NCBI RefSeq assembly: GCF_003011885.1 | Contig: NZ_PXXO01000017.1 | Coordinates: forward strand, 1-42,395 | Source of the DNA: Cyanobium usitatum str. Tous | GTDB lineage: Bacteria > Cyanobacteriota > Cyanobacteriia > PCC-6307 > Cyanobiaceae | Length of the DNA stretch: 42,395 nt | Direction of reading: 5' to 3' | Part shown: positions 1-12,250 of the stretch, piece by piece | Layout of the letters: each line of letters starts with the position of its first letter | How positions within the stretch are numbered: position 1 is the first letter of the stretch | Notes under the pieces: generated by a model | Seen by the model: the letters and a program-made list of their open reading frames with translations, nothing else | What the model was told of the DNA's origin: nothing | Databases searched by the model: none | Translations under genes and position numbers: made by a program

Positions 1-686
1 CGATTCATCAAGACTTCCTTCTCCCTCCACACGACTGAATTGATCATCTACTACCGATGCCACAGGTCCATCATCCTGGATCCCTAGCAGCGATCCATTT
101 CCTAGATTCACTCCACCGGCACTCGTTACTGAATCGCCGTCCTGATCTATAATCGTCTGCTTCACAAGCAGTGATCCACCTTCTCCTGTATTTAGGAACG
201 TCTCCTCATCATTTGATCCAGTATTTGAATGATATATATTATCTGGATTTGTTGTATCACTATAGGCAAATGTCACCACACCCGTGCTGCTATCAACGCT
301 GATAACAAATACCTCATTCGTCTCGTTTCCAAACTCCACTCCGAACACCTTCCCAGCATTAGCTCCACTCCCACTCACCAGCACAATCGCATTGCCAGGC
401 AATGACGCATCTGATGCATTCAGTAAATTAAGACCAGAGCTGATCGATTCTCCTGACAGCACAAGACCATAGGACTCTGTAACTCCAGGGACGTCTGTTC
501 CAACCGATCCAATACTTCCGCCAGGCGCGCTGAATGCTACTGATACATCTAACGTCGTGCTATAAATTCCATCACCCTGACCAGACGCTGGCATCGTTCC
601 TAACAGCTCCGATTCATCAAGACTTCCTTCTCCCTCCACACGACTGAATTGATCATCTACTACCGATGCAACAGGTCCATCATCCT
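1..686 (-). repeat. Tandem domain repeat in adhesin gene, 609-bp period
   Basis: Bases 1-77 and 610-686 are identical except for one position (61 versus 670). The offset of 609 bases is exactly 203 codons, one domain. The shared part encodes the start of a domain (DDGPVASVVDDQFSR and onward). Similarity stops at the left of the conserved block (base 78 versus 687), where one copy leaves the repeat array and joins the divergent first domain. Only one full repeat plus the start of the next is inside the window. Confidence 0.85.
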
Positions 687-2160
687 CAAAGACAAAAATA
701 CCTTGCCCAATATTCAGATTACCGAAGGCCTGATCTCCATCAAAATCAGTAACGATCTGCTGAACCTGAAGGAGATCGGCATCAGCCAAATTGAGCAGAA
801 CGGAATCATCGTTAGACGACGAGTCGGGATGCCAGATGGCTGACGATTGAGAGAGCGAGAGCAGACCAGCGGGGCTGATGGTGATCTGAAAATAAGTAAC
901 ACCACCTGCTGAGCCGATCACCGAGGTAGGTGATGCCTGCGAGAGCAATATCTCTGCACCTGGAACACCGACACTACCGAGTGCAAACAAGCCCGAGGGG
1001 ATACCGATGCCGTTTAGTACCAACCCATAAGAGACCGTTCCAGGCCCATCAGCCCCAAAACCAAACTGAGTGCCAGGATCAGCGCTGCTGTCAAAGAACT
1101 GGCTGACATCGAGAGACACCGTGTCGAAGCCAGCAGCGTTCTCAGAACCATCAGGCGTGCCGATCTCACCAACACTCTCATCCACGATCAGCTGAGGGAG
1201 CTCATCAGTGGAAGCCAACACAAACGGCGTGGCATCCACAATCCGAATGCCGCCAGTAGCGGTTGCAGTAGCACCGCTTAAGTCTGTAACGGTGGCAGAT
1301 ATCGGCACAAAGGCCGAGTTCTGATCAATATTTGGATTGCCCAGGGGATTGGTGTTGTTCACCGGGCTGGTGAGCGTGAAGCTGAAGCTGATCACGCCAG
1401 TGACGGGATCAAAGCCCTGCAGGGTGAGCACCCCTTCCGTTTCCGTGTCACCGTCTCCGGCTTCCAGGGGGATCTGGAAGGTGGGGCTAAGCGGATCGAT
1501 TGTGAGCAGCTGGCTGAGCGTGAACAGCTGTCCAGCTATCAGCACGGTGGCGATGTCGCCAATGCCATCGGGATCGCCGATCACGATGGTGCCCTGGCTG
1601 GTGGCAAACTGCGACAGACCAGCTTCCAGACCAACCTCAGACACCAGGCCGGAGGGCAGCTGGGTCAAAGGATCGCTGCGTAGCCCCTCGTTGAAGTTGT
1701 CGTCGTTATTACCCGGATCGCTGTCACCATCACTTGGCTCAGCGGGATTTTCCGGCAGCACGTCCACAGTGGGCGGACTGTTGGCTTCCTCACCAGCGGC
1801 TAGAGGAGTGAAAGGACTCAGCGCAGGATCGTCCTGAGCCACACCCGTCTGCACCACCCTGGGCTGATCAGGATTCTCGGTGGTGGTGGTGCCACCTGCT
1901 AATCCACCACTACCACCACCGACGTCGGTTTCGGGCTCAGGAATATCTTGAGTCACTCCTACAGCAGGGGGCTGGCTCTCCGGGGCCTGCTCGGTGATCG
2001 TGTTGTCGGTAGCTCCGCCCGTTGGGGTGCTGCCACCGGGATTGTCCATGCTGCCGGCGGTATCTACCACCGCGGCGTCCTGCATGTTGCCTGCCAGACG
2101 GCTCTCATCTTCGGCTGCTTGGGCGCCGTCTGTGAGCATGGTGATTAGATCTTCCGCCAT
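1..2160 (-). CDS. Large repeat adhesin, type I secretion substrate (N-terminal part, runs off window)
   Basis: Reading the minus strand from the ATG at 2160, the frame stays open for 720 codons to base 1, so the gene continues beyond the left edge. An in-frame stop lies about 45 bases upstream of the ATG, which limits the start. The first ~200 residues are acidic and rich in Gly, Thr and Pro, with no signal peptide, as expected for a protein exported by a C-terminal signal. From about residue 320 there are ~200-residue beta-type domains joined by DGDQAF/DGDSVT and DDGPVA motifs, resembling the DUF5801/T1SS-143 repeats of giant RTX-like adhesins. The second domain is complete and the third has just begun. 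The gene follows HlyD and the ABC proteins in the same direction but is separated from them by a terminator, so it probably has its own promoter. The role in surface attachment or as a cell-surface layer is inferred. Confidence 0.8.
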   Translation of the reverse strand, partial: MAEDLITMLTDGAQAAEDESRLAGNMQDAAVVDTAGSMDNPGGSTPTGGATDNTITEQAPESQPPAVGVTQDIPEPETDVGGGSGGLAGGTTTTENPDQPRVVQTGVAQDDPALSPFTPLAAGEEANSPPTVDVLPENPAEPSDGDSDPGNNDDNFNEGLRSDPLTQLPSGLVSEVGLEAGLSQFATSQGTIVIGDPDGIGDIATVLIAGQLFTLSQLLTIDPLSPTFQIPLEAGDGDTETEGVLTLQGFDPVTGVISFSFTLTSPVNNTNPLGNPNIDQNSAFVPISATVTDLSGATATATGGIRIVDATPFVLASTDELPQLIVDESVGEIGTPDGSENAAGFDTVSLDVSQFFDSSADPGTQFGFGADGPGTVSYGLVLNGIGIPSGLFALGSVGVPGAEILLSQASPTSVIGSAGGVTYFQITISPAGLLSLSQSSAIWHPDSSSNDDSVLLNLADADLLQVQQIVTDFDGDQAFGNLNIGQGIFVFEDDGPVASVVDDQFSRVEGEGSLDESELLGTMPASGQGDGIYSTTLDVSVAFSAPGGSIGSVGTDVPGVTESYGLVLSGESISSGLNLLNASDASLPGNAIVLVSGSGANAGKVFGVEFGNETNEVFVISVDSSTGVVTFAYSDTTNPDNIYHSNTGSNDEETFLNTGEGGSLLVKQTIIDQDGDSVTSAGGVNLGNGSLLGIQDDGPVASVVDDQFSRVEGEGSLDES

Positions 2161-2452
2161 GGTCTCGATACATTCGTCTGTATCCAAACTATGCAAGTCA
2201 ATTCAGCTAATCAAGGGGAAAACCGCCCATTGGCAGCTCACCAGGGGGCCCTGGGCTTAGCAGAGGATCCAATAAACCTGGGAATGACTGCAGTAGAGTC
2301 AGTTTGGGGTTTCTGAGAGGTGGCTGAGAAGTTTGCCCGATCAGGGTTTATTACAAATCGACGCAAATTAGAATGCTATTTTGGGAACACAAACACTGTT
2401 GAGCGAGTTCGGAGCAGCCAAAGCCGCCGTAGTCAATTCTTATAAAACATAC
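2161..2452 (-). promoter_or_regulatory. Upstream region of the adhesin gene, no gene seen
   Basis: This stretch of about 290 bases between the HlyD terminator and the adhesin start has no credible coding frame. Because the HlyD gene ends in a hairpin followed by a T-run, the adhesin promoter should lie here. On the minus strand TTGACT begins 41 bases before the ATG, but no convincing -10 box follows at the right distance and no Shine-Dalgarno sequence precedes the ATG. The promoter position is therefore unresolved. Confidence 0.35.
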
Positions 2453-2503: not shown

Positions 2504-3910
2504 TCAGCGCGATTCACGCAGTGCTGAATCAAGGGTACGGGTGAATGGCTGGAAGATGTAGCGCAGTACGCTGCGCTGGGGACCCTTGATGTCGGCCACA
2601 AGTGGCATACCAACAGCAATTGGGTATTTACGATTGGCCACATCTACAAACTGGCGGTCAAGCTGGATACGAGCATTGTAGTAGTACTTGCGGTCGTCGG
2701 GGTCTTGTACTGAATTACCACCGATGCTCAGCACCCGACCGGGGACCGAGCCATAAATAGTGGAATCAAAGGGCTGTAGTTTTACATCCACCTTTTGGCC
2801 TGGCTTCACAAAGCCGATGTCACCAGACGGAACCCGCACCTCCACCAGCCTCTGAGTGCTGTTCGGCACCACCGACAGCACCACAGCACCAGGACCGACC
2901 ACGCCACCAGGGGCCTTAAAGCGCAGATCGCTCACCACCCCATTCACTGGAGCCGTGATTTTGGTGCGCTCAAGCTGGTTACGAGTCTTCTTAATGTTTT
3001 CAGCCACTACAGCCTCCTCATTCACCAACTGAGCAACCTGAGAGTTCTGCTCAAAGACCAAACCAGATTGAACTCCATTTAGATTTGCCTCCGCCTGGGA
3101 GAGAGACTTCAGCGACTCATTACGCGCACCACGCATCTCCGCCAGCTTGGTATCGATGTCGAGCAGATTGAGCCGGGAGGCGGCGCCAGAAGCAACCAAA
3201 CCAGCCCACATCGCCCGCTGCTTCAAATACAGAGCGATCTGGTTGTTAAGGCCTGTGATCTCAGCCCGCTTCTCCGCCACCACAGCCTGGGCTGCCTTGA
3301 TCTGGTCGTTCCGATTGTCCATGCGGCTATTGAGCAGGTCCACCTGGGCCTGGCTCACCTTGTTGCCCTCCTTGATGCCCTCAGTGGGAGGCAGCACCCG
3401 CTCACCACGGATCGCAGCCTGCAGCTGCTGTTGCTGCAGCAGCAGGTTTTTGAGCTGTTGCTCAGTGGCGCGATATTCGCTTTCCACCAGATTGGGGCGC
3501 AGCTCCAACATCACCTCGCCCACGCGCACCTCGTCACCGTCGCTCACATCAACCCGCGACACAATGCCGCCTTCAAGGTGCTGCACCACATTCACTTCAC
3601 CTTCGGGAATCACCTCGCCGGAGGCATTCACCACCTGGGTTATGGGTGTTAGCGCCGCCCAAGGGAAGAAGATCAAGGCCGCTGCTCCAAGCACGTAAAG
3701 GCTGAGTCGTAGGTAGCGGTTGTCTGGTTTTTCCTCCAGCTCCAGGGCCTGACTGAGCCGGCTGCGACCAACCAGCGTGATCGCATCAGGGCTATCCATG
3801 CCGGGCAGCCGAGATAGCAGGCCGCCAGCGGGCGGTAAGGCAAGGGAAGAGGGATCAGACAGGGCGCTGCCAGAAATGGAGTTGTGGCCGTTGGCGGGTA
3901 TGGAAGTCAT
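2504..3910 (-). CDS. HlyD-family membrane fusion protein of type I secretion system
   Basis: The 468-residue product is a periplasmic adaptor that would link the inner-membrane ABC exporter to a TolC-type outer-membrane channel. A ~65-residue cytoplasmic N-terminus precedes one membrane segment at about residues 70-86 (LYVLGAAALIFFPWAAL). The lipoyl/barrel-sandwich half-motif with VVQHLEGGIVSRVDVSDGDE follows at about 108-127, then a long glutamine-rich coiled coil to about residue 310. The second half-motif (ITAPVNGVVSDLRF) and a beta-barrel with GMPLVADI near the C-terminus are typical of HlyD/LapC/PrtE proteins. The gene lies 36 bases downstream of the 710-residue ABC protein in the same direction, so they are probably co-transcribed. 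No TolC homologue is in the window. Confidence 0.92.
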   Translation of the reverse strand: MTSIPANGHNSISGSALSDPSSLALPPAGGLLSRLPGMDSPDAITLVGRSRLSQALELEEKPDNRYLRLSLYVLGAAALIFFPWAALTPITQVVNASGEVIPEGEVNVVQHLEGGIVSRVDVSDGDEVRVGEVMLELRPNLVESEYRATEQQLKNLLLQQQQLQAAIRGERVLPPTEGIKEGNKVSQAQVDLLNSRMDNRNDQIKAAQAVVAEKRAEITGLNNQIALYLKQRAMWAGLVASGAASRLNLLDIDTKLAEMRGARNESLKSLSQAEANLNGVQSGLVFEQNSQVAQLVNEEAVVAENIKKTRNQLERTKITAPVNGVVSDLRFKAPGGVVGPGAVVLSVVPNSTQRLVEVRVPSGDIGFVKPGQKVDVKLQPFDSTIYGSVPGRVLSIGGNSVQDPDDRKYYYNARIQLDRQFVDVANRKYPIAVGMPLVADIKGPQRSVLRYIFQPFTRTLDSALRESR

Positions 3911-3946: not shown

Positions 3947-6079
3947 TCAGGCTGTTATCTTTTGCATACGCGCTCGCAGCTCCTCAGCCGTGCCCTGGAA
4001 AGAGGTGACGCCTTTATCAAGAATGCAGAGACGATCGGCCTTCTCCAGCAGCATCTTGTTGTCTGTTGCCATAATCACGCTGCGATCCTGGCCACTAAAG
4101 GTGCAGCGCCGCATAGACGGAAGAGCGTCCAATACCGCCTGGAACTGATCAGGAGCCAAGCCCTGACTGATGTCGTCTATCAACAAAATTGGCGTGTCCT
4201 TGATCAACGCCTGGGCTAAAGCCATAAGCCGGCGCACCCCATTGGGCAGCTGATAGGCAATCTCATCGGTGAGCGGCGTGTCGAAGCCTTCCGGTAGGCC
4301 ATCGAGAAAATCGAGCAGGCCCAGGCTGGTGCAGATCTGCCGAACCCCGTCCACAGTGACGTCAGGATTCATGGCCGTGAGGTTGCTCCAAATGGTGCCG
4401 GGCAACAGCTCGCTCTGGGGCATCAGGTATGCGATGTTGCGCTGGATTGCTTCGGCGCTGAACTGGCGGTAGTCCTTACCGTCAAATAGCAGGGTGCCGC
4501 TCACCAGCGGGTAAAGCTGGTCGACAACCCTCAGCACCGTGCTCTTGCCGCAACCGGCATTGCCGGTGATCGCCAACAGTTCGCCGGGTGCCACCGAAAG
4601 CGACACCCGGGTGATCGCTAGGGCAGCCTCGCCGCCAAGCCGGCAGGCCGCTGAATCCAGCAAGATCGATCCCCGCATACGCGGCGCACTCACCAAGGCA
4701 CCGGCAGGTCTCGTGCTGCTGCGCAGTCTGAAGAACTGATCGAGCTGGCCATACTGCTTACGCATCGAATCGAAGCGCAGCAAGGCATTCATCAACTGTT
4801 GAAACGGTGTAAATACCCTAAAAACGAAGAACATGGCGGCAATCAAGTTGCCCATGGCCGCCGGGCCCTGACCACTCGAATAGGCCAACCACACACCGAT
4901 AGCCAGGGTGAGCACGCTTGCCAGTTGGGAGGTGGTGCTAACGATTACTTGCAACCGGCCCACTTGACGGTTGATCGTGAGGCCACTGCTGGTGCTCTGG
5001 GCCGACAGCCCTCGCAGCCGCTGCAGCCACACCCATTCGACATTGGCCAGCTTCACTTCAAGGAAACGATTCACCAGCTCCTGCTGGGCCTGGGTGATGC
5101 CGATGCCCGTGGCCAGATTGATCTCGGAGGCACCGGTGTAGTAGCGAGACAGCAACCACACCAGCAGACCACTGAGCACCATCAACACCAGAGGCACAAA
5201 CACCAGCGGTCCTGCAATCATTGCAATGGCGCCTAAGTAGATCACCACAAAGGGAAAATCCAGGCAGGCCAGCGCTAGGGGGCCCTGCAAATAAGCCAGC
5301 AGGCCGTCAAGGTTGCGCTGCCGGTTGATGAGGCCGTGCTGGCCAAGGGTCTCGATCTGGCGGTAGTCGAGACCAAACAGCTTCTCCACCAGATTCACCC
5401 CCAGCAGAGCATCGAGCCGGCCCGAGAGCTGGGAGAGCAGGTTGGTGCGCCACTGGCGCAGGATCCAATCGAGCACGAATAGCAGCACGACCCCCAGAAA
5501 GATCCAGAAGGTGGAGAGCACACTGGTGCTCGGGATTGAAACGTTGTAAATAGCCCGGAGGTAAAAGGGCAGTGTCATCGCCAGCAGCGCCAAGGCGAAG
5601 CTGATGCCGTAGAGCACTGCTATGCGATTGGTGAAGCGGTAAAGAATCTGCTGAAGAAGGGTCACCCGCTCGGTGCTGCCTTTGTCCTGCAGAAACATCA
5701 ACCTGCCACCGGCCGGCACGGTATGAAGTTCGACGCGACCATTGACGTTGCCGGCTACAAGATCCCCCTTAGTGGTGATCGACAGCACGTAGGGCACGTT
5801 GTCTGGAGCCACATACAAGGCTGGCAGCAGCTGGGGGTTGAGCTGGCTCCAACTCTCGAGACCTTCCAGACGGCTGCCGTAACCGAGCCTCAGCAGCAAG
5901 TTGCGTGCATCGACCAGGTCCATGTGGCGAGGGTCGTTGCCGAAGAGCTCAAACAGCTCATCGGAACGGCCTGTCCAGAGCATCTGCTGAAGTAGCAGCC
6001 TTATGCAGAAGGCCATCGGCGCTTCTGAACTGAGCGTTAGATCGCGCAGCAACGTTGAGCGGGATGCAGAAATAGTCAT
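3947..6079 (-). CDS. Type I secretion ABC exporter with C39-like domain and degenerate ATPase motifs
   Basis: The 710-residue protein has the order seen in HlyB/LapB-type exporters: an N-terminal C39-peptidase-like domain without catalytic Cys/His (about 1-135), a membrane domain (about 150-440) and a nucleotide-binding domain. Walker A is intact (GNAGCGKST, about residue 505) and the Q-loop is present (YLMPQSELLPGTIW). However, the signature is LPNGVRR instead of LSGGQ, Walker B reads ILLIDDIS with Asp at the catalytic Glu position, and the H-loop is MATDN with Asp in place of His. Its ATG overlaps the stop of the upstream 582-residue gene (ATGA), which implies translational coupling and a heterodimer. 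It probably binds ATP but may hydrolyse it poorly. The likely substrate is the adhesin at 1-2160. Confidence 0.9.
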   Translation of the reverse strand: MTISASRSTLLRDLTLSSEAPMAFCIRLLLQQMLWTGRSDELFELFGNDPRHMDLVDARNLLLRLGYGSRLEGLESWSQLNPQLLPALYVAPDNVPYVLSITTKGDLVAGNVNGRVELHTVPAGGRLMFLQDKGSTERVTLLQQILYRFTNRIAVLYGISFALALLAMTLPFYLRAIYNVSIPSTSVLSTFWIFLGVVLLFVLDWILRQWRTNLLSQLSGRLDALLGVNLVEKLFGLDYRQIETLGQHGLINRQRNLDGLLAYLQGPLALACLDFPFVVIYLGAIAMIAGPLVFVPLVLMVLSGLLVWLLSRYYTGASEINLATGIGITQAQQELVNRFLEVKLANVEWVWLQRLRGLSAQSTSSGLTINRQVGRLQVIVSTTSQLASVLTLAIGVWLAYSSGQGPAAMGNLIAAMFFVFRVFTPFQQLMNALLRFDSMRKQYGQLDQFFRLRSSTRPAGALVSAPRMRGSILLDSAACRLGGEAALAITRVSLSVAPGELLAITGNAGCGKSTVLRVVDQLYPLVSGTLLFDGKDYRQFSAEAIQRNIAYLMPQSELLPGTIWSNLTAMNPDVTVDGVRQICTSLGLLDFLDGLPEGFDTPLTDEIAYQLPNGVRRLMALAQALIKDTPILLIDDISQGLAPDQFQAVLDALPSMRRCTFSGQDRSVIMATDNKMLLEKADRLCILDKGVTSFQGTAEELRARMQKITA

Positions 6080-7824
6080 GCGAACACCTCCCGGCCCTTG
6101 GCCGGCATATCGATTTGCTGATCACTCAACGAACTGAGCACCCTTCCGGCGCCGCTGATCAGCACAGTCGTGCGGCCTTTGGTGCGGCTCAAAATTCGCT
6201 GCAGGCCGTCGATGAATTCCTTGCCATAAGAGCAATCGCTCAGATCCAACAGCAGCACCTGGGGTGATCGAGCGAGGGCGGTGACCACCTGGAAGAGCTG
6301 CTGGGCATCGCGCGACAGCCCAGAAGGCACCGAGGTGCCCATTGCCGTGTCGTATCCATGGGGCAAGCCCCTCACCTTGGTATCCAAGCCGGTGAGGAAG
6401 GTCCAGAACAAGGCCCGGCGCTGGTAGCGGCGCGGCTGATAGCTGGTGATGTTCTCCAGCAAGGTCCCCTCAAAAAACTGGCGCGCGGGGTCTACATGGC
6501 TAATGCAGGCGCGCAGGGCCTCGCGTTGATAACTGGCCACCGGCAGACCGTTGAGCTGCAGACGAGCCTCAGGCTCGATCTGAATCAGAGCCATAAACAG
6601 GTGGCGGGCGCTGGCGCCAAACTGCTGATTGCCCAGCAGGGCCACCGAACCATTGGGAATCACCGCCAGGGGCTGGCCATCGAGAGCAAGGCTGAGAGCG
6701 CCATCAGTGGACATGGCCAGTTTTTTATCGCCGCCTTCCCCTTCCACCGGTGTGGCCATCAGTGCGTCGTATTCGTCGCGGGAATGAGCCAGGCGGCGGT
6801 AGCTGCTCCACAAGCCCATGGCCTGCTGCCAAGGGCTGAGGATTTTGCCGGCCAGCAGCAGGGCTGCCGCCAGGGCACCCACCAGCAACCTTCCCTGGAT
6901 CACCAGCAGGGCACCCCAAGTAACAATGCCAGCAAATGTGAGCTGGCTCATCAGCGAACCAAACGCCTGGTATCTACCGCTGAAGTTGTTGTTGACCATG
7001 CGCTGCCAGGCCAGCTCCTCCTGCCGCTGTTCGTTGCCCACCCGAAACTGACGGCCCAAGCCGTTCGACTTGATCAAGTCGATAGAACCCATCAACTTTT
7101 CTTGGTAGCTAAGCCGCTCGAGCTCCAGTCGGTCTCGCTGCTTGCTGATCCCCTCGTATTCGCGAGCGAATGCCAAGGCCCTCAGCACATAAATCACAAT
7201 GGCAATCACCGCGACGAAGCCGACGCTGCCTGCAATCAGGAACAGCACCAGCACGAACAACAGAGAGAAAACCAGGTCTATCGCGGTAGTGAGAGACTGC
7301 AGAGCACTCTCATCGCGCAGCAGGTTGATGCTGTTGAGGCGCTCCAGGTGGGTGGCAGGCGAGACGCTTAGGTAATCGCTTAGGCGCATCTGGGAGAAGT
7401 GGGCCAGCCCCTCAAGGCGCCGCTGATGCTCTAGCCGGGCTCCGTCGCCTCCAGTGAAACCAAGCCGCACGATCTTGAGCCAGCCGCCCAACACCATTAG
7501 CAGCACCACGACCACCGTCATTACCACCAGGCTCGACATCGCACCACTGGGCAGCACGGACGTATAAACGATATTGATATAAAGAGGGGACGCCAGCTCC
7601 AGCAGATTAATTAACACCGAGGCGATCAAGATCGGACCCAGCTGGTAATTGCTCCAGTCAGCATCGCGAAGCGACTGGAAGAAGCGGTGGCCAACAAACT
7701 CTTCGATCAGATCAAAGCTAGTATTCCAGGCACCTCGAATATTGGAGGCCAACCGGCCTACCGCCTGAGTAAAGATATACAAAGGAAATCGGCTCTGCTC
7801 TCTGACCTCTAGTGTTCTTATCAA
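6076..7824 (-). CDS. ABC exporter half-protein with pseudo-ATPase domain
   Basis: The 582-residue protein has an ABC-exporter membrane domain (hydrophobic segments between about 60 and 340) and a C-terminal domain that aligns by position with an ABC ATPase but has lost the catalytic residues. The P-loop is GNQQFGASA with no Lys, the Q-loop glutamine is absent (HVDPARQFF), the signature is PSGLSRDAQ, Walker B is VLLLDLSD without Glu, and the H-loop reads LISGAG without His. It should therefore be a structural or regulatory partner of the 710-residue protein, whose gene it overlaps by four bases. The frame opens with TTG at 7824, preceded by AGAAGAG. No ATG is available before the membrane domain, so this start is likely. 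It is the first gene of the operon. Confidence 0.85.
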   Translation of the reverse strand: MIRTLEVREQSRFPLYIFTQAVGRLASNIRGAWNTSFDLIEEFVGHRFFQSLRDADWSNYQLGPILIASVLINLLELASPLYINIVYTSVLPSGAMSSLVVMTVVVVLLMVLGGWLKIVRLGFTGGDGARLEHQRRLEGLAHFSQMRLSDYLSVSPATHLERLNSINLLRDESALQSLTTAIDLVFSLLFVLVLFLIAGSVGFVAVIAIVIYVLRALAFAREYEGISKQRDRLELERLSYQEKLMGSIDLIKSNGLGRQFRVGNEQRQEELAWQRMVNNNFSGRYQAFGSLMSQLTFAGIVTWGALLVIQGRLLVGALAAALLLAGKILSPWQQAMGLWSSYRRLAHSRDEYDALMATPVEGEGGDKKLAMSTDGALSLALDGQPLAVIPNGSVALLGNQQFGASARHLFMALIQIEPEARLQLNGLPVASYQREALRACISHVDPARQFFEGTLLENITSYQPRRYQRRALFWTFLTGLDTKVRGLPHGYDTAMGTSVPSGLSRDAQQLFQVVTALARSPQVLLLDLSDCSYGKEFIDGLQRILSRTKGRTTVLISGAGRVLSSLSDQQIDMPAKGREVFA

Positions 7825-7995: not shown

Positions 7996-8667
7996 ATGTA
8001 CCGGTTCCGTTTGAGTTCGGATCAAGTCCAATTGGAGCTAGTTGCCAACGGCAACAGTGCCCTCCTGCCATTTCAGGTAATTGGCCCCACTACGGAGGTG
8101 GCCTTTCTTGAAGAGCTGATCGAAGAAAGTCTCGGCAGCCTCACCCTTAACCCGCGCGAGCTGTTTGGCTTCCTTGGCAGCGACCCATGGGTGAAGGGGG
8201 CTTTCCAAGCGCCTCAGGTGGTGGAAGGCGATCTAAATGCCGCTGCCAGCACCGAAACCAGCTTTCAGCGCCAAACCCTCGGCAGAAAGCTGGAGCAGGC
8301 CGGAGTGCTCGACATCGAAGAGCTGGAGCAGCTGCTAGTGGACTACCGCCCCTTCGCTGAAACCCAGCGCTTTGGCGAATTCCTACGGCTCAACCTGCAG
8401 GTGCCGCCCCAGATGCTGGATCTGCTACTCAACCCCGCCCTGTTCGATGAGCAGGGCTTCAATGAGAAGCGGCTGGGTGAGCGCCTGGTGGAAATGGGCT
8501 GCATCACCCCTGAGCAACTTGATCAGGCCCTCGACCTGCAACGCAGCAAGGGCGGCCGGGTTGGCGAACTGCTGGCCGAGCTGGGCTTCATCTCCACCAC
8601 CACGGCCCGCTTCTTCTCGCTGGCCAAAGTCAACGAAAAAGGTCAGATCGACTACCAGGCCGGCTAA
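7996..8667 (+). CDS. MshEN-like (GspE N-terminal-like) protein, possible c-di-GMP receptor
   Basis: The 223-residue soluble protein has no membrane segment or enzyme motif. Residues 159-182 begin RLGERLVEMG and end in LDLQ, matching the published MshEN pattern RLGxx[LVI][LVI]xxG[LVI][LVI]xxxxLxxxLxxQ at every fixed position except Cys-169, where an aliphatic residue is expected. A weaker copy starts at residue 94 (TLGRKLEQAGVL). MshEN domains bind cyclic di-GMP in MshE-type ATPases, but here there is no ATPase domain, so the protein would be a stand-alone sensor or adaptor. It is divergent from the adhesin exporter operon across 171 bp, which suggests a regulatory role there. It overlaps the folP 3' end by three bases tail to tail. 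Family membership is inferred from the motif only. Confidence 0.6.
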   Translation: MYRFRLSSDQVQLELVANGNSALLPFQVIGPTTEVAFLEELIEESLGSLTLNPRELFGFLGSDPWVKGAFQAPQVVEGDLNAAASTETSFQRQTLGRKLEQAGVLDIEELEQLLVDYRPFAETQRFGEFLRLNLQVPPQMLDLLLNPALFDEQGFNEKRLGERLVEMGCITPEQLDQALDLQRSKGGRVGELLAELGFISTTTARFFSLAKVNEKGQIDYQAG

Positions 8668-10277: not shown

Positions 10278-10520
10278 CTAATGGGCCGGCGGCCTGGTCC
10301 CCATAAACAGCAGCTCGCGGCCGTCGATGTCGACCGCATCACCGGGGGCCAACTGACGACCGCGACGGGTTTCGATGGCGCCATTCACCCGCACATCACC
10401 GCGCTGAATGCGCAGCTTGGCTTCGCCGCCGGTGCCAGCCAGGCCTTGGTATTTGAGGAATTGATCGAGTTTCAAGGGGCGGATTGGGGGAGCAGCGATA
10501 GCGTGACCGCATGCTTGCAC
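10278..10520 (-). CDS. S4-domain RNA-binding protein (YbcJ-like)
   Basis: The 80-residue protein is essentially one S4 domain: IRPLKLDQFLKYQGL, then GGEAKLRIQRGDVRVNGA, then RRGRQLAPGDAVDIDG. Small S4 proteins of this kind bind structured RNA, often rRNA, but the target of this one is not known. The start is GTG at 10520, which lies inside the first codons of the divergent ABC exporter gene (10-base head-to-head overlap), so each gene's translation start lies in the other's coding sequence. It leads the S4-tpiA-folP group. Confidence 0.85.
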   Translation of the reverse strand: MQACGHAIAAPPIRPLKLDQFLKYQGLAGTGGEAKLRIQRGDVRVNGAIETRRGRQLAPGDAVDIDGRELLFMGTRPPAH

Positions 10521-12250
10521 CCTCGCCGGCCGGGTTTCGACACCTCTGGCCGCTGCTGAAACCCCACCGCCGGCGCCTGCTGGCAGGTGGGCTGTGCATG
10601 GTGATCTATGTGGCCTGCTGGCCGCTGCTCGCCTGGCTGGCGGGCCAGCTGATTCCAGCCATCGGCGCTGGCAACTTCCCAGTGGTGCTGCGCACTATCG
10701 CCGCGGCCCTGGGACTGTTTTTGGTTCAAAAGGCGGCCCAGTTCGGCCAGGACACCCTGCTGGCAGGGCCGGCCCTGCGGGTTAGTCAGGAGTTGCGGCG
10801 TGGCCTATTTGCCCGCCTGCAACGGCTGGAATTCGGCGCCCTCGAGAAGCTCTCAGCCGGCGACCTCACCTATCGCCTCACCGAAGACGCCGACCGGGTG
10901 GGCGAGGTGATCTACAAAACCATTCAAGACACCACCCCCAGCGCCCTGCAGCTTGTGGTGGTGCTCGGCTACATGGTGTGGCTCGATTGGCCCTTAGCCC
11001 TGGCCACCCTGCTGCTGGCGCCAGTGGTGGTGCTGCTGGTAAGCAGCTTTGGCGCCCGGGTAATGACCGCCGCCGAACGCAGTCAAAAGCAGGTGAGCGA
11101 GCTGGCGGGCCTGCTGGGCGAAGCGATCGGTGGGCTGCCTTTAGTGAGGGCCTTCGCGGCCGAACCGTGGCTGCAGCAGCGCTTCGACACCGAAATCGAC
11201 CTGCACCGTCGGGCCCGCTACCGCACCCTCAAACTGCTTGCCCTGCAGCACCCGGTGGTGGGCTTTCTGGAAGCAGCCGGCATCCTCACCGTGCTGCTGC
11301 TCGGCGCCGCCCGGATTCAGGCCGGCGGCCTCAACAGCCAGGGCTTCAGCAGCTACGTGGCGGCCCTGCTGATGCTGATCGACCCGATCTCCCACCTCAC
11401 CACCAACTTCAACGAGTTTCAGCAGGGCCAGGCCTCGCTTCGGCGACTGCGGGCGATCGAGGCGGAACCGGTGGAGGCTCCAGACCGGCCCTCGGCCCAG
11501 CCGCTTGGCAGCGTGCGCGGCGAGCTGGTGCTCGAGCAGGTGCGCTTCGGCTACAACCCCGCCCAACCGGTGCTGCACGACCTGGATCTGCAGGTGCGGC
11601 CTGGCCAGGTAGTGGCCCTGGTGGGCCCCTCCGGCGCCGGCAAAAGCACCCTGTTTTCCCTGCTGCTGCGCTTCAACACCGCCCAGCAGGGCCGGGTGCT
11701 GCTGGATGGCCACGACCTAGCCGATCTGCGGGCGCGGGAGCTGCGCCGCGCCGTAGCCCTGGTGCCCCAGCAGAGCAGTGTGTTTTCTGGCACGGTGGCC
11801 GAAGCGATTGCCTTCGGCCGGCCCGCCAGCGAGGCTGCCATCCGCCAAGCCGCCAGCCTCGCCAACGCCGCCGGCTTCATCGAGGCCCTGCCCCAGGGCT
11901 ACGCCAGCCGCATCGAAGAGCGGGGCAGCAACTTCTCTGGCGGCCAGCTGCAACGGCTGGCCATTGCCCGCGCCGTGCTCGGCAACCCGGCGGTGTTGCT
12001 GCTGGATGAAGCCACCAGCGCCCTCGATGCCGAAGCGGAGGAGGCGGTGCAGCGGGGCTTGGAGCAGGCGATGGCGGGCCGCACCGTGCTGGTGATTGCC
12101 CACCGGCTAGCCACCGTGCAGGGTGCAGACAGAATCCTGGTACTCGATGGCGGTCGCATCGTCGAACAGGGCAGTCACAATGAGCTGATGGCGCAGGGGG
12201 GCCGCTACCGCGAGCTCTGCGAGCGCCAATTCATTCATCTGCAAGCCTGA
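10511..12250 (+). CDS. ABC exporter, permease fused to ATPase (MsbA/multidrug-like)
   Basis: The 579-residue protein is a homodimer-type half transporter: six hydrophobic segments in residues ~20-310 followed by an ATPase domain. All catalytic motifs are canonical: Walker A VGPSGAGKST, Q-loop LVPQQSSVF, signature FSGGQLQRLAIARA, Walker B VLLLDEATSALD and H-loop VIAHRLAT. This gives an in-window contrast with the degenerate secretion ABC pair at 3947-7824. Export of a lipid or drug-like compound is plausible, but the substrate cannot be read from the sequence. Its stop overlaps the start of the next gene by one base (TGATG). Confidence 0.92.
   Translation: MLAPSPAGFRHLWPLLKPHRRRLLAGGLCMVIYVACWPLLAWLAGQLIPAIGAGNFPVVLRTIAAALGLFLVQKAAQFGQDTLLAGPALRVSQELRRGLFARLQRLEFGALEKLSAGDLTYRLTEDADRVGEVIYKTIQDTTPSALQLVVVLGYMVWLDWPLALATLLLAPVVVLLVSSFGARVMTAAERSQKQVSELAGLLGEAIGGLPLVRAFAAEPWLQQRFDTEIDLHRRARYRTLKLLALQHPVVGFLEAAGILTVLLLGAARIQAGGLNSQGFSSYVAALLMLIDPISHLTTNFNEFQQGQASLRRLRAIEAEPVEAPDRPSAQPLGSVRGELVLEQVRFGYNPAQPVLHDLDLQVRPGQVVALVGPSGAGKSTLFSLLLRFNTAQQGRVLLDGHDLADLRARELRRAVALVPQQSSVFSGTVAEAIAFGRPASEAAIRQAASLANAAGFIEALPQGYASRIEERGSNFSGGQLQRLAIARAVLGNPAVLLLDEATSALDAEAEEAVQRGLEQAMAGRTVLVIAHRLATVQGADRILVLDGGRIVEQGSHNELMAQGGRYRELCERQFIHLQA

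Follow-up and report, generated by a model that had tools for sequence, protein, structure and literature searches.

The window analysed here, that is, the whole stretch of 42,395 nucleotides that makes up contig 9 (NZ_PXXO01000017.1) of the 2.5-Mb genome of the picocyanobacterium Cyanobium usitatum str. Tous, carries on its minus strand two overlapping genes for ATP-binding cassette (ABC) half-exporters, here called A and B, both of which have lost catalytic motifs of their nucleotide-binding domains (NBDs). Half-exporter B (6076..7824, 582 aa) consists of a transmembrane domain and an NBD, and half-exporter A (3947..6079, 710 aa) has a peptidase-like region at its N-terminus in addition to these two domains. 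The initial annotation had described the two open reading frames (ORFs) as intact, and their coordinates and frames agree with this description, including the ATGA overlap and the absence of internal stops. Transcription on the minus strand proceeds from B through A to a gene for an HlyD-type periplasmic adaptor (2504..3910, 468 aa), which matches TIGR01843 over its cut-off, and then to the beginning of a giant acidic repeat protein (1..2196), the likely substrate, of which the first 732 codons lie inside the window and the rest is lost at the contig end. This truncated ORF matches DUF5801 and, below the cut-off, the T1SS-143 repeat. Divergently from B, the plus strand encodes a 223-aa protein (7996..8667) with an MshEN-type domain for binding of cyclic di-GMP (c-di-GMP).

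ATP hydrolysis at paired NBDs is the defining feature of ABC exporters, and in those heterodimeric exporters that have one degenerate site the other site stays consensus. Each composite site is built from the Walker motifs of one NBD and the signature of the other, as set out in a passage of a review (PMC7756269). The motif columns were read from an alignment of 26 A, 26 B (one of them partial), seven A' and six B' proteins of a sister pair described below, and 18 other exporters from two genomes, with the canonical MsbA-like exporter of the window (10511-12250) as reference. In A, the Walker A lysine K512 (4544..4546; this and all following A and B motifs are on the minus strand) is kept in 26/26 orthologues, as is the first aspartate of the Walker B pair D635 and D636 (4172..4177), whereas the catalytic Glu at the second position is replaced by Asp in 26/26, as had been noted for the window. 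The signature position (residues 611-615, 4235..4249) reads LPNGV for LSGGQ, again in line with the initial annotation; Pro takes the place of the signature Ser in 25 of the 26 orthologues, Ser is found in one, and the second Gly is retained in all. At the H-loop position, the window has Asp (D673, 4061..4063) for His, and no orthologue among the 26 has His (Asp in 22, Glu in two, Ser in two). A had also been described as keeping its Walker A motif and its Q-loop; the first part holds throughout, and the second is true of the window but not as a conserved feature, since the Q-loop Gln (as MPQ) occurs in only nine of the 26 orthologues, window included.

The losses in B go further. The reported absence of the P-loop Lys, Q-loop Gln, catalytic Glu and H-loop His from the 582-aa protein was reproduced by alignment: the degenerate P-loop (GNQQFGASA, 6607..6633) has Lys in 0/26 orthologues, the Q-loop has Gln in 0/26, and among the 25 orthologues having the respective region the catalytic Glu is replaced by Leu in 25 and the H-loop His is found in none, whereas the Walker B Asp is present in 24/25. 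The signature previously given for B, PSGLS, was read in another register: in a profile alignment to HlyB, it is LSRDA (6304..6318) that faces LSGGQ, and the orthologues carry LSRDA or LSSDx there (Leu 26/26, Ser 25/26, Gly-Gly-Gln gone). This better register is still non-canonical, and no canonical signature or H-loop was seen near the degenerate motifs of either protein. As a control, 16 of the 18 other exporters, taken from the window genome and genome G092, have the P-loop Lys, the Q-loop Gln, the signature Ser, the Walker B Asp, catalytic Glu or Asp, and the H-loop His. In two of these 16, Asp replaces the catalytic Glu and all else is canonical, hence a Glu-to-Asp change alone is not rare; the remaining two of the 18 form a separate degenerate pair in G092.

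The set of P-loop Lys, catalytic Glu, His and LSGGQ that marks a catalytically competent NBD is thus incomplete in both A and B, and neither composite site is complete in any of the 26 A or 25-26 B orthologues. Judging from the motifs, the first site, which combines the Walker motifs of A with the signature of B, could bind ATP and lacks the catalytic Glu and His, and the second, with the Walker motifs of B and the signature of A, would have lost nearly all motif residues. According to a passage of the above review, ATP hydrolysis still seems possible at Glu-to-Asp sites, at a rate far below that of transport (PMC7756269), and the H-loop mutant H662A of HlyB is quoted in an excerpt of another paper at <0.1% activity (PMC9751043); on these grounds, hydrolysis by A/B would be expected to be very slow at best.

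Among 300 sampled genomes of the window's family, A matched in 31 (E <= 1e-60) and B in 26 (E <= 1e-40), the latter from 11 of 59 genera, and both were present in 26 genomes. Five genomes (G177, G193, G236, G253, G264) have an A match and no B match; theirs is only an A'-type match at ~31% identity. The motif losses are common to orthologues down to 51% identity for A and 43% for B, and no orthologue with canonical motifs was found among the 26. Reading frames are open in 25/26 A and 26/26 B orthologues examined (one B partial), the sole A orthologue with an in-frame stop being that of G121 (L018). Both NBDs are under purifying selection: in 12 comparisons for A and 12 for B, made by the Nei-Gojobori method between pairs hand-picked among closer relatives, the ratio of nonsynonymous to synonymous substitution rates (dN/dS) is 0.048-0.137 for the NBD of A and 0.054-0.220 for that of B, and 0.012-0.154 for the transmembrane parts. 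Constraint on the NBD of B is mostly looser than on its transmembrane part, yet clear.

The A profile matched seven of 386 genomes of the phylum, none of them outside the window's family. Named carriers include Synechococcus sp. CS-1330 and CS-1328, Cyanobium sp. FACHB-13342, T1B-Tous and Morenito 9A2, Vulcanococcus limneticus LL and a metagenome-assembled genome (MAG) of Synechococcus lacustris. Among the papers listed in searches of the open-licence PMC literature, none described such a system. Gene neighbourhoods were compared in 26 loci, namely the window, 13 regions (L087-L099), L106 and 11 further contigs; 25 of them come from the 26 genomes with B, and G096, where the A/B pair is split over contigs, lies outside the set. 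The remaining locus, L076 (JAAESS010000350.1), comes from none of these genomes and is filed as a Flavobacteriales MAG, its A/B pair being 87-88% identical to that of L097 from the window's family; this contig is probably misbinned.

For both half-exporters, the best NCBIfam match is TIGR03375 (LssB), with 279.1 bits for A and 200.0 bits for B against a cut-off of 693. The canonical exporters of ~1000 aa in these genomes do not reach this cut-off either (0/29 genomes over it), which means that it is strict for this group. In Pfam at E 0.001, ABC_tran matches A and not B, and ABC_membrane matches B and not A. Among PDB entries, HlyB comes first for the sequence of B and for the fold of both models, and the sequence profile of A finds ABCB1-type chains first, followed by PrtD and HlyB. 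The AlphaFold models are of moderate confidence (predicted local distance difference test 69.2 for A and 61.8 for B), come from shallow alignments of 14 and 13 rows, and were used for fold alone. The model of A compares to HlyB 7sgr_B with Z 24.9 and a root-mean-square deviation (rmsd) of 14.4 over 527, its NBD compares to the HlyB NBD 2fgk with Z 21.4 and rmsd 2.9 over 218 residues, so that the modelled NBD keeps the fold, and the model of B matches 7sgr_B with E 2.8e-15 and a template modelling (TM) score of 0.55. Both models thus predict an exporter fold with a retained RecA-like NBD and are silent on activity. The peptidase-like region at the N-terminus of A is probably of the C39-like domain (CLD) type, judged from its place and modelled strands.

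Since both the TIGR03375 cut-off and the catalytic motifs fail, A/B would be best placed as a variant of type I secretion outside the canonical family. It resembles the HlyB, LssB (LapB) and PrtD exporters in its best TIGR03375 match, in its HlyB fold and in an operon with HlyD and a giant repeat protein, and differs from them in being an A/B pair, with both NBDs degenerate and scores far under the cut-off. With TM287/288, TmrAB, TAP and BmrCD it shares the use of two different half-exporters and a Walker B Glu-to-Asp change in one subunit; these keep one consensus site, as stated in a passage of the review (PMC7756269), whereas the loss in A/B extends to the second site, where even the P-loop Lys of B is missing.

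A sister pair, A'/B', is also doubly degenerate. A' is ~31% identical to A and gave seven matches in the search of the family genomes; the seven A' proteins examined are six with neighbourhoods and a seventh from a MAG contig (L078), while the A' of G236 is not among them. The P-loop Lys is replaced by Thr, Arg or Ser in all seven, and an acidic residue, Asp or Glu, occupies the H-loop position in 7/7, as in most A. Among the six B' proteins, none has the P-loop Lys or the catalytic Glu, and one has His at the H-loop column. HlyD is encoded near A'/B' in 6/6 loci. Related ATPase genes of the AAA_21 type stand near HlyD in three of these loci (L101, L103, L104; two were scanned), and an MlaD gene stands near the pair in two (L103, L105). 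In a quick likelihood tree of 51 rows, midpoint-rooted, with long branches (flagged by a warning) and without bootstrap, one group joins A to A' and another joins B to B', each with a Shimodaira-Hasegawa-like approximate likelihood ratio (SH-aLRT) support of 100 and apart from the canonical exporters. This tree comprised 13/26 A, 13/26 B, seven A' and 5/6 B', and left out L165, which was on the wrong strand, and L171, L167, L169, L110 and L119, which are canonical. In view of these two groupings, the paired state looks old, and the simplest reading of these sequences is that the pair, with an acidic residue at the A-type H-loop, predates the split of the two systems. The earlier view of two non-canonical composite sites in a locus that is nevertheless not decayed is therefore borne out by the conservation among orthologues, by purifying selection and by an equally degenerate sister pair.

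The operon has the composition expected for type I secretion, with HlyD and a large repeat protein. A and B are side by side in 26/26 loci, and HlyD follows A directly on the same strand in all of them. In 13 A/B loci inspected, long and very acidic ORFs resembling a substrate (some of them partial) lie near the pair, with a fraction of Lys plus Arg (K+R) of 0.1-3.0% and 0-2 Cys; the two that were scanned have DUF5801 or weak T1SS-143 matches. The median K+R of A/B-linked giant ORFs is 0.0175 (12 values) versus 0.037 (11 values) in controls (rank test p 0.006), a comparison among related rows in which several ORFs are partial, L098 has masked letters, and the controls are ORFs beside canonical exporters that are low in K+R or resemble repeats-in-toxin (RTX) proteins, drawn from 7/18 neighbourhoods by a filter favouring low K+R. 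L071 (partial, 387 aa), three A'/B'-linked rows and continuation pieces were left out. We considered the acidity of the substrate as a distinctive mark of the system, which would have pointed to an electrophoretic drive, and rejected it, because the difference in K+R is weak and acidity is shared with the RTX-type proteins beside canonical exporters. Continuations of the giant ORFs in G092 and G045 (L190, L191) are still acidic, with K+R of 0.015-0.022 in the matching pieces and 0-4 RTX-like motifs each. It should also be noted that a conserved small acidic protein of ~130 aa without Pfam match is encoded near the giant ORF in several loci (e.g., L087:16900-17286), and in three loci it is followed by an OmpR-type response regulator.

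The 223-aa protein encoded divergently from B scores 64.8 bits against the NCBIfam model of the MshE-related c-di-GMP-binding domain, whose cut-off is 38, and all seven neighbours scanned are over this cut-off. The match covers residues 159-202 (8470..8601, plus strand) and consists of a first motif, RLGERLVEMGCITPEQLDQALDLQ, a spacer and a second copy starting RVG. This fits the MshEN consensus with its 5-residue spacer, taken for comparison from a part of PMC10519070, the first motif being complete. In the RLGxxLVxxGxI motif of the MshEN neighbours, the first RLG Arg is found in 12 of the 15 listed, with Lys in two and Pro in one. The gene is divergent from and adjacent to B in 24/26 loci; it is ~7.5 kb from B in L094 and was not found in the L075 locus of Synechococcus lacustris, where a PAS-GGDEF gene directly upstream of B occupies the position that the MshEN gene has in others, and the MshEN gene is elsewhere in the same genome. 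Across the 300 genomes, the protein and B have the same distribution: all 26 genomes with B encode it, and it is absent from the other 274 (Fisher p 5e-38, which is not a fair test as the genomes are related), and genera g1, g5, g6, g10 and g35 each contain genomes both with and without the whole A/B-MshEN set. GGDEF proteins were found in 25/25 A/B genomes searched (G096 not among them).

From this co-occurrence and arrangement, the MshEN protein is taken as a putative dedicated partner of A/B; from its motifs it is predicted to bind c-di-GMP, and it may dock on the NBDs. It resembles MshE, GspE and NfrB in having an MshEN domain over cut-off with the RLGxxLVxxGxI motif, and it differs in that it is small, stands alone and is linked to a type I system: over the Pfam cut-offs, it has neither an ATPase nor a glycosyltransferase domain, and matches to NfrB-type models are weak and partial. 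The whole arrangement is reminiscent of LapA and LapBCE with LapD/LapG, which likewise combine a giant adhesin-like substrate, an LssB-like exporter, HlyD and a link to c-di-GMP. Here, in contrast, the receptor-like protein is of the MshEN type, the NBDs are degenerate, and LapG was not found; the search for a LapG-type protease (PF06035, Peptidase_C93) gave no match in 25 A/B genomes, while the control search was positive in 1/14 named genomes (Caulobacter), and LapD was not searched for.

The initial annotation had suggested that another ATPase may help the pair. No helper ATPase was seen within the operon among the neighbourhood ORFs. A canonical MsbA-like exporter gene is located near the operon in at least 14/26 loci, a lower bound obtained from a motif pattern; in the window, it lies in a folP-tpiA block on the other strand than A/B and is separated from the operon by the MshEN, folP and tpiA genes. 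Canonical type I exporters of ~1000 aa accompany A/B in most of the carrier genomes surveyed; genomes lacking A/B have exporters of this length too. The genome most informative on this point is G092, which is 99% complete in one contig and holds the A/B pair, its HlyD and an adhesin. Its best other TIGR03375 match scores 326 bits, above the 279 bits of A, and the same protein reaches 435-437 bits with MsbA/cyanophycin-type models; no further exporter of this genome scores as canonical type I class, the others being at MsbA level on TIGR03375. The sole HlyD over the family cut-off adjoins A/B, and weaker adaptor matches exist, one of which, together with an OEP/TolC gene, is 5-7 kb from the MsbA/cyanophycin-like exporter; outer-membrane OEP proteins are also present. 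The exporter and HlyD content of G092 thus lends no support to a helper in the form of a type I exporter partner. G092 also contains a third adjacent exporter pair (L156/L160, C1 ~116000-121000) whose open frames are 911 and 753 aa long; Walker A is retained in both NBDs, the signature, the catalytic Glu and the His are lost, and the second ORF (753 aa) has an apparently intact Cys of the C39 peptidase.

The reading that we tentatively favour, at somewhat short of even confidence, is that A/B is a type I exporter without a normal ATP-hydrolysis cycle, which is gated via a c-di-GMP receptor and whose transport is driven otherwise. The operon would encode a type I secretion system devoted to a giant surface protein that is acidic and rich in repeats, with an A/B heterodimer as the inner-membrane exporter. 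The NBD dimer would have at most one ATP-binding site, formed by Walker A and B of A facing the Leu-Ser of B, and no competent catalytic site, the NBDs being retained as a gate or a docking platform rather than as a motor. The small MshEN protein encoded back to back with the exporter would sense c-di-GMP and open or permit the exporter, and the movement of the protein could be driven by the proton-motive force, by folding of the acidic repeats outside the cell, or by both, instead of hydrolysis at the A/B NBDs. Calcium-driven folding is reportedly a secretion ratchet. A contribution of the proton-motive force to HlyA secretion is reported in a passage of PMC3034196, and this role, together with the lack of another canonical type I exporter in G092, is what makes a gate with outside driving forces the favoured option. 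In its most novel form, which we regard as doubtful, the exporter would no longer be an ATPase motor at all: c-di-GMP would act through a dedicated MshEN protein docked on the dead NBDs to open a conduit, and the membrane potential and folding outside would pull the giant polyanionic protein through.

Several observations weigh against the favoured reading. The Walker A Lys and the Walker B Asp-Asp of A are invariant (26/26), suggesting that ATP binding, and possibly slow hydrolysis, still matters in the lineage. Asp in place of the catalytic Glu occurs in two otherwise canonical exporters of these genomes, and such sites elsewhere seem able to hydrolyse slowly, as quoted above from part of the review (PMC7756269). 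A neighbour with a working ATPase, the MsbA-like exporter, stands near the operon in at least 14/26 loci, though genomes lacking A/B have it too. In G231, the MshEN match exceeds the cut-off by a very small margin (38.4 versus 38 bits, the lowest of the seven scanned), and neither the A'/B' loci nor the 300-genome search yielded an MshEN protein that goes with A'/B', so that this protein is no general answer to degenerate NBDs. Finally, the acidity of the substrates is not peculiar to A/B, since the RTX-type proteins encoded next to canonical exporters share it.

The main rival, which we consider unlikely though it deserves to be taken seriously, is slow hydrolysis at the site that may still bind ATP: Walker A and B of A with the LS signature of B would turn over ATP slowly, enough for a few giant molecules, and the other site would be dead, as in an extreme version of the one-site-degenerate exporters. 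The invariance of K512, D635 and D636, the nearly constant Leu-Ser of the B signature and the residual activity that Glu-to-Asp sites seem to have (PMC7756269, in the passage cited) are consistent with it. On the other hand, the H-loop His of A is gone in 26/26 and the B signature lacks Gly-Gly-Gln, and in the sister pair even the P-loop Lys of A' is lost in 7/7 examined, yet HlyD is still found beside A'/B' in 6/6 loci.

It is less probable still that A/B dimers assemble with canonical exporter dimers, encoded nearby or elsewhere, which hydrolyse ATP on their behalf. A precedent is provided by HlyB, which forms a trimer of dimers with six HlyD, where all three dimers hydrolyse ATP and only one acts as a channel, according to an excerpt of PMC9751043, and candidates for such a role would be the ~1000-aa exporters of most A/B genomes surveyed and the MsbA-like neighbour. 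However, these ~1000-aa exporters are not confined to genomes with A/B, the MsbA-like gene of the window is on the other strand and beyond the MshEN gene, and in G092 the best other TIGR03375 match is of the MsbA/cyanophycin type and the one HlyD over cut-off lies beside A/B. The possibility that A/B is no longer an exporter, but a membrane sensor or a retention platform for a giant surface protein leaving by another route, appears very unlikely: the loss of ATPase motifs and the constant pairing with a c-di-GMP-receptor-like protein would suit it, whereas an HlyD gene is kept beside A in every one of the 26 loci and the transmembrane domains are strongly constrained (dN/dS 0.012-0.154). Local decay or a sequencing error, for which one could quote the single in-frame stop in L018, is ruled out for practical purposes by the same losses in 26 genomes of 11 genera, by frames open in nearly all orthologues and by dN/dS far below 1.

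A gated exporter driven from outside the NBDs remains our preferred, tentative reading of a pair whose degeneracy is conserved and under selection. Such a doubly degenerate pair, together with its more degenerate sister, is a natural case for testing which elements of the ATP cycle are required for type I secretion, and A/B is likewise a natural test of whether the proton-motive force or folding outside the cell can drive this type of secretion. If the MshEN protein is a true partner, it would represent a new way of tying c-di-GMP to adhesin export, unlike LapD/LapG. The carriers include named environmental strains of Cyanobium, Synechococcus and Vulcanococcus, which makes the idea testable.

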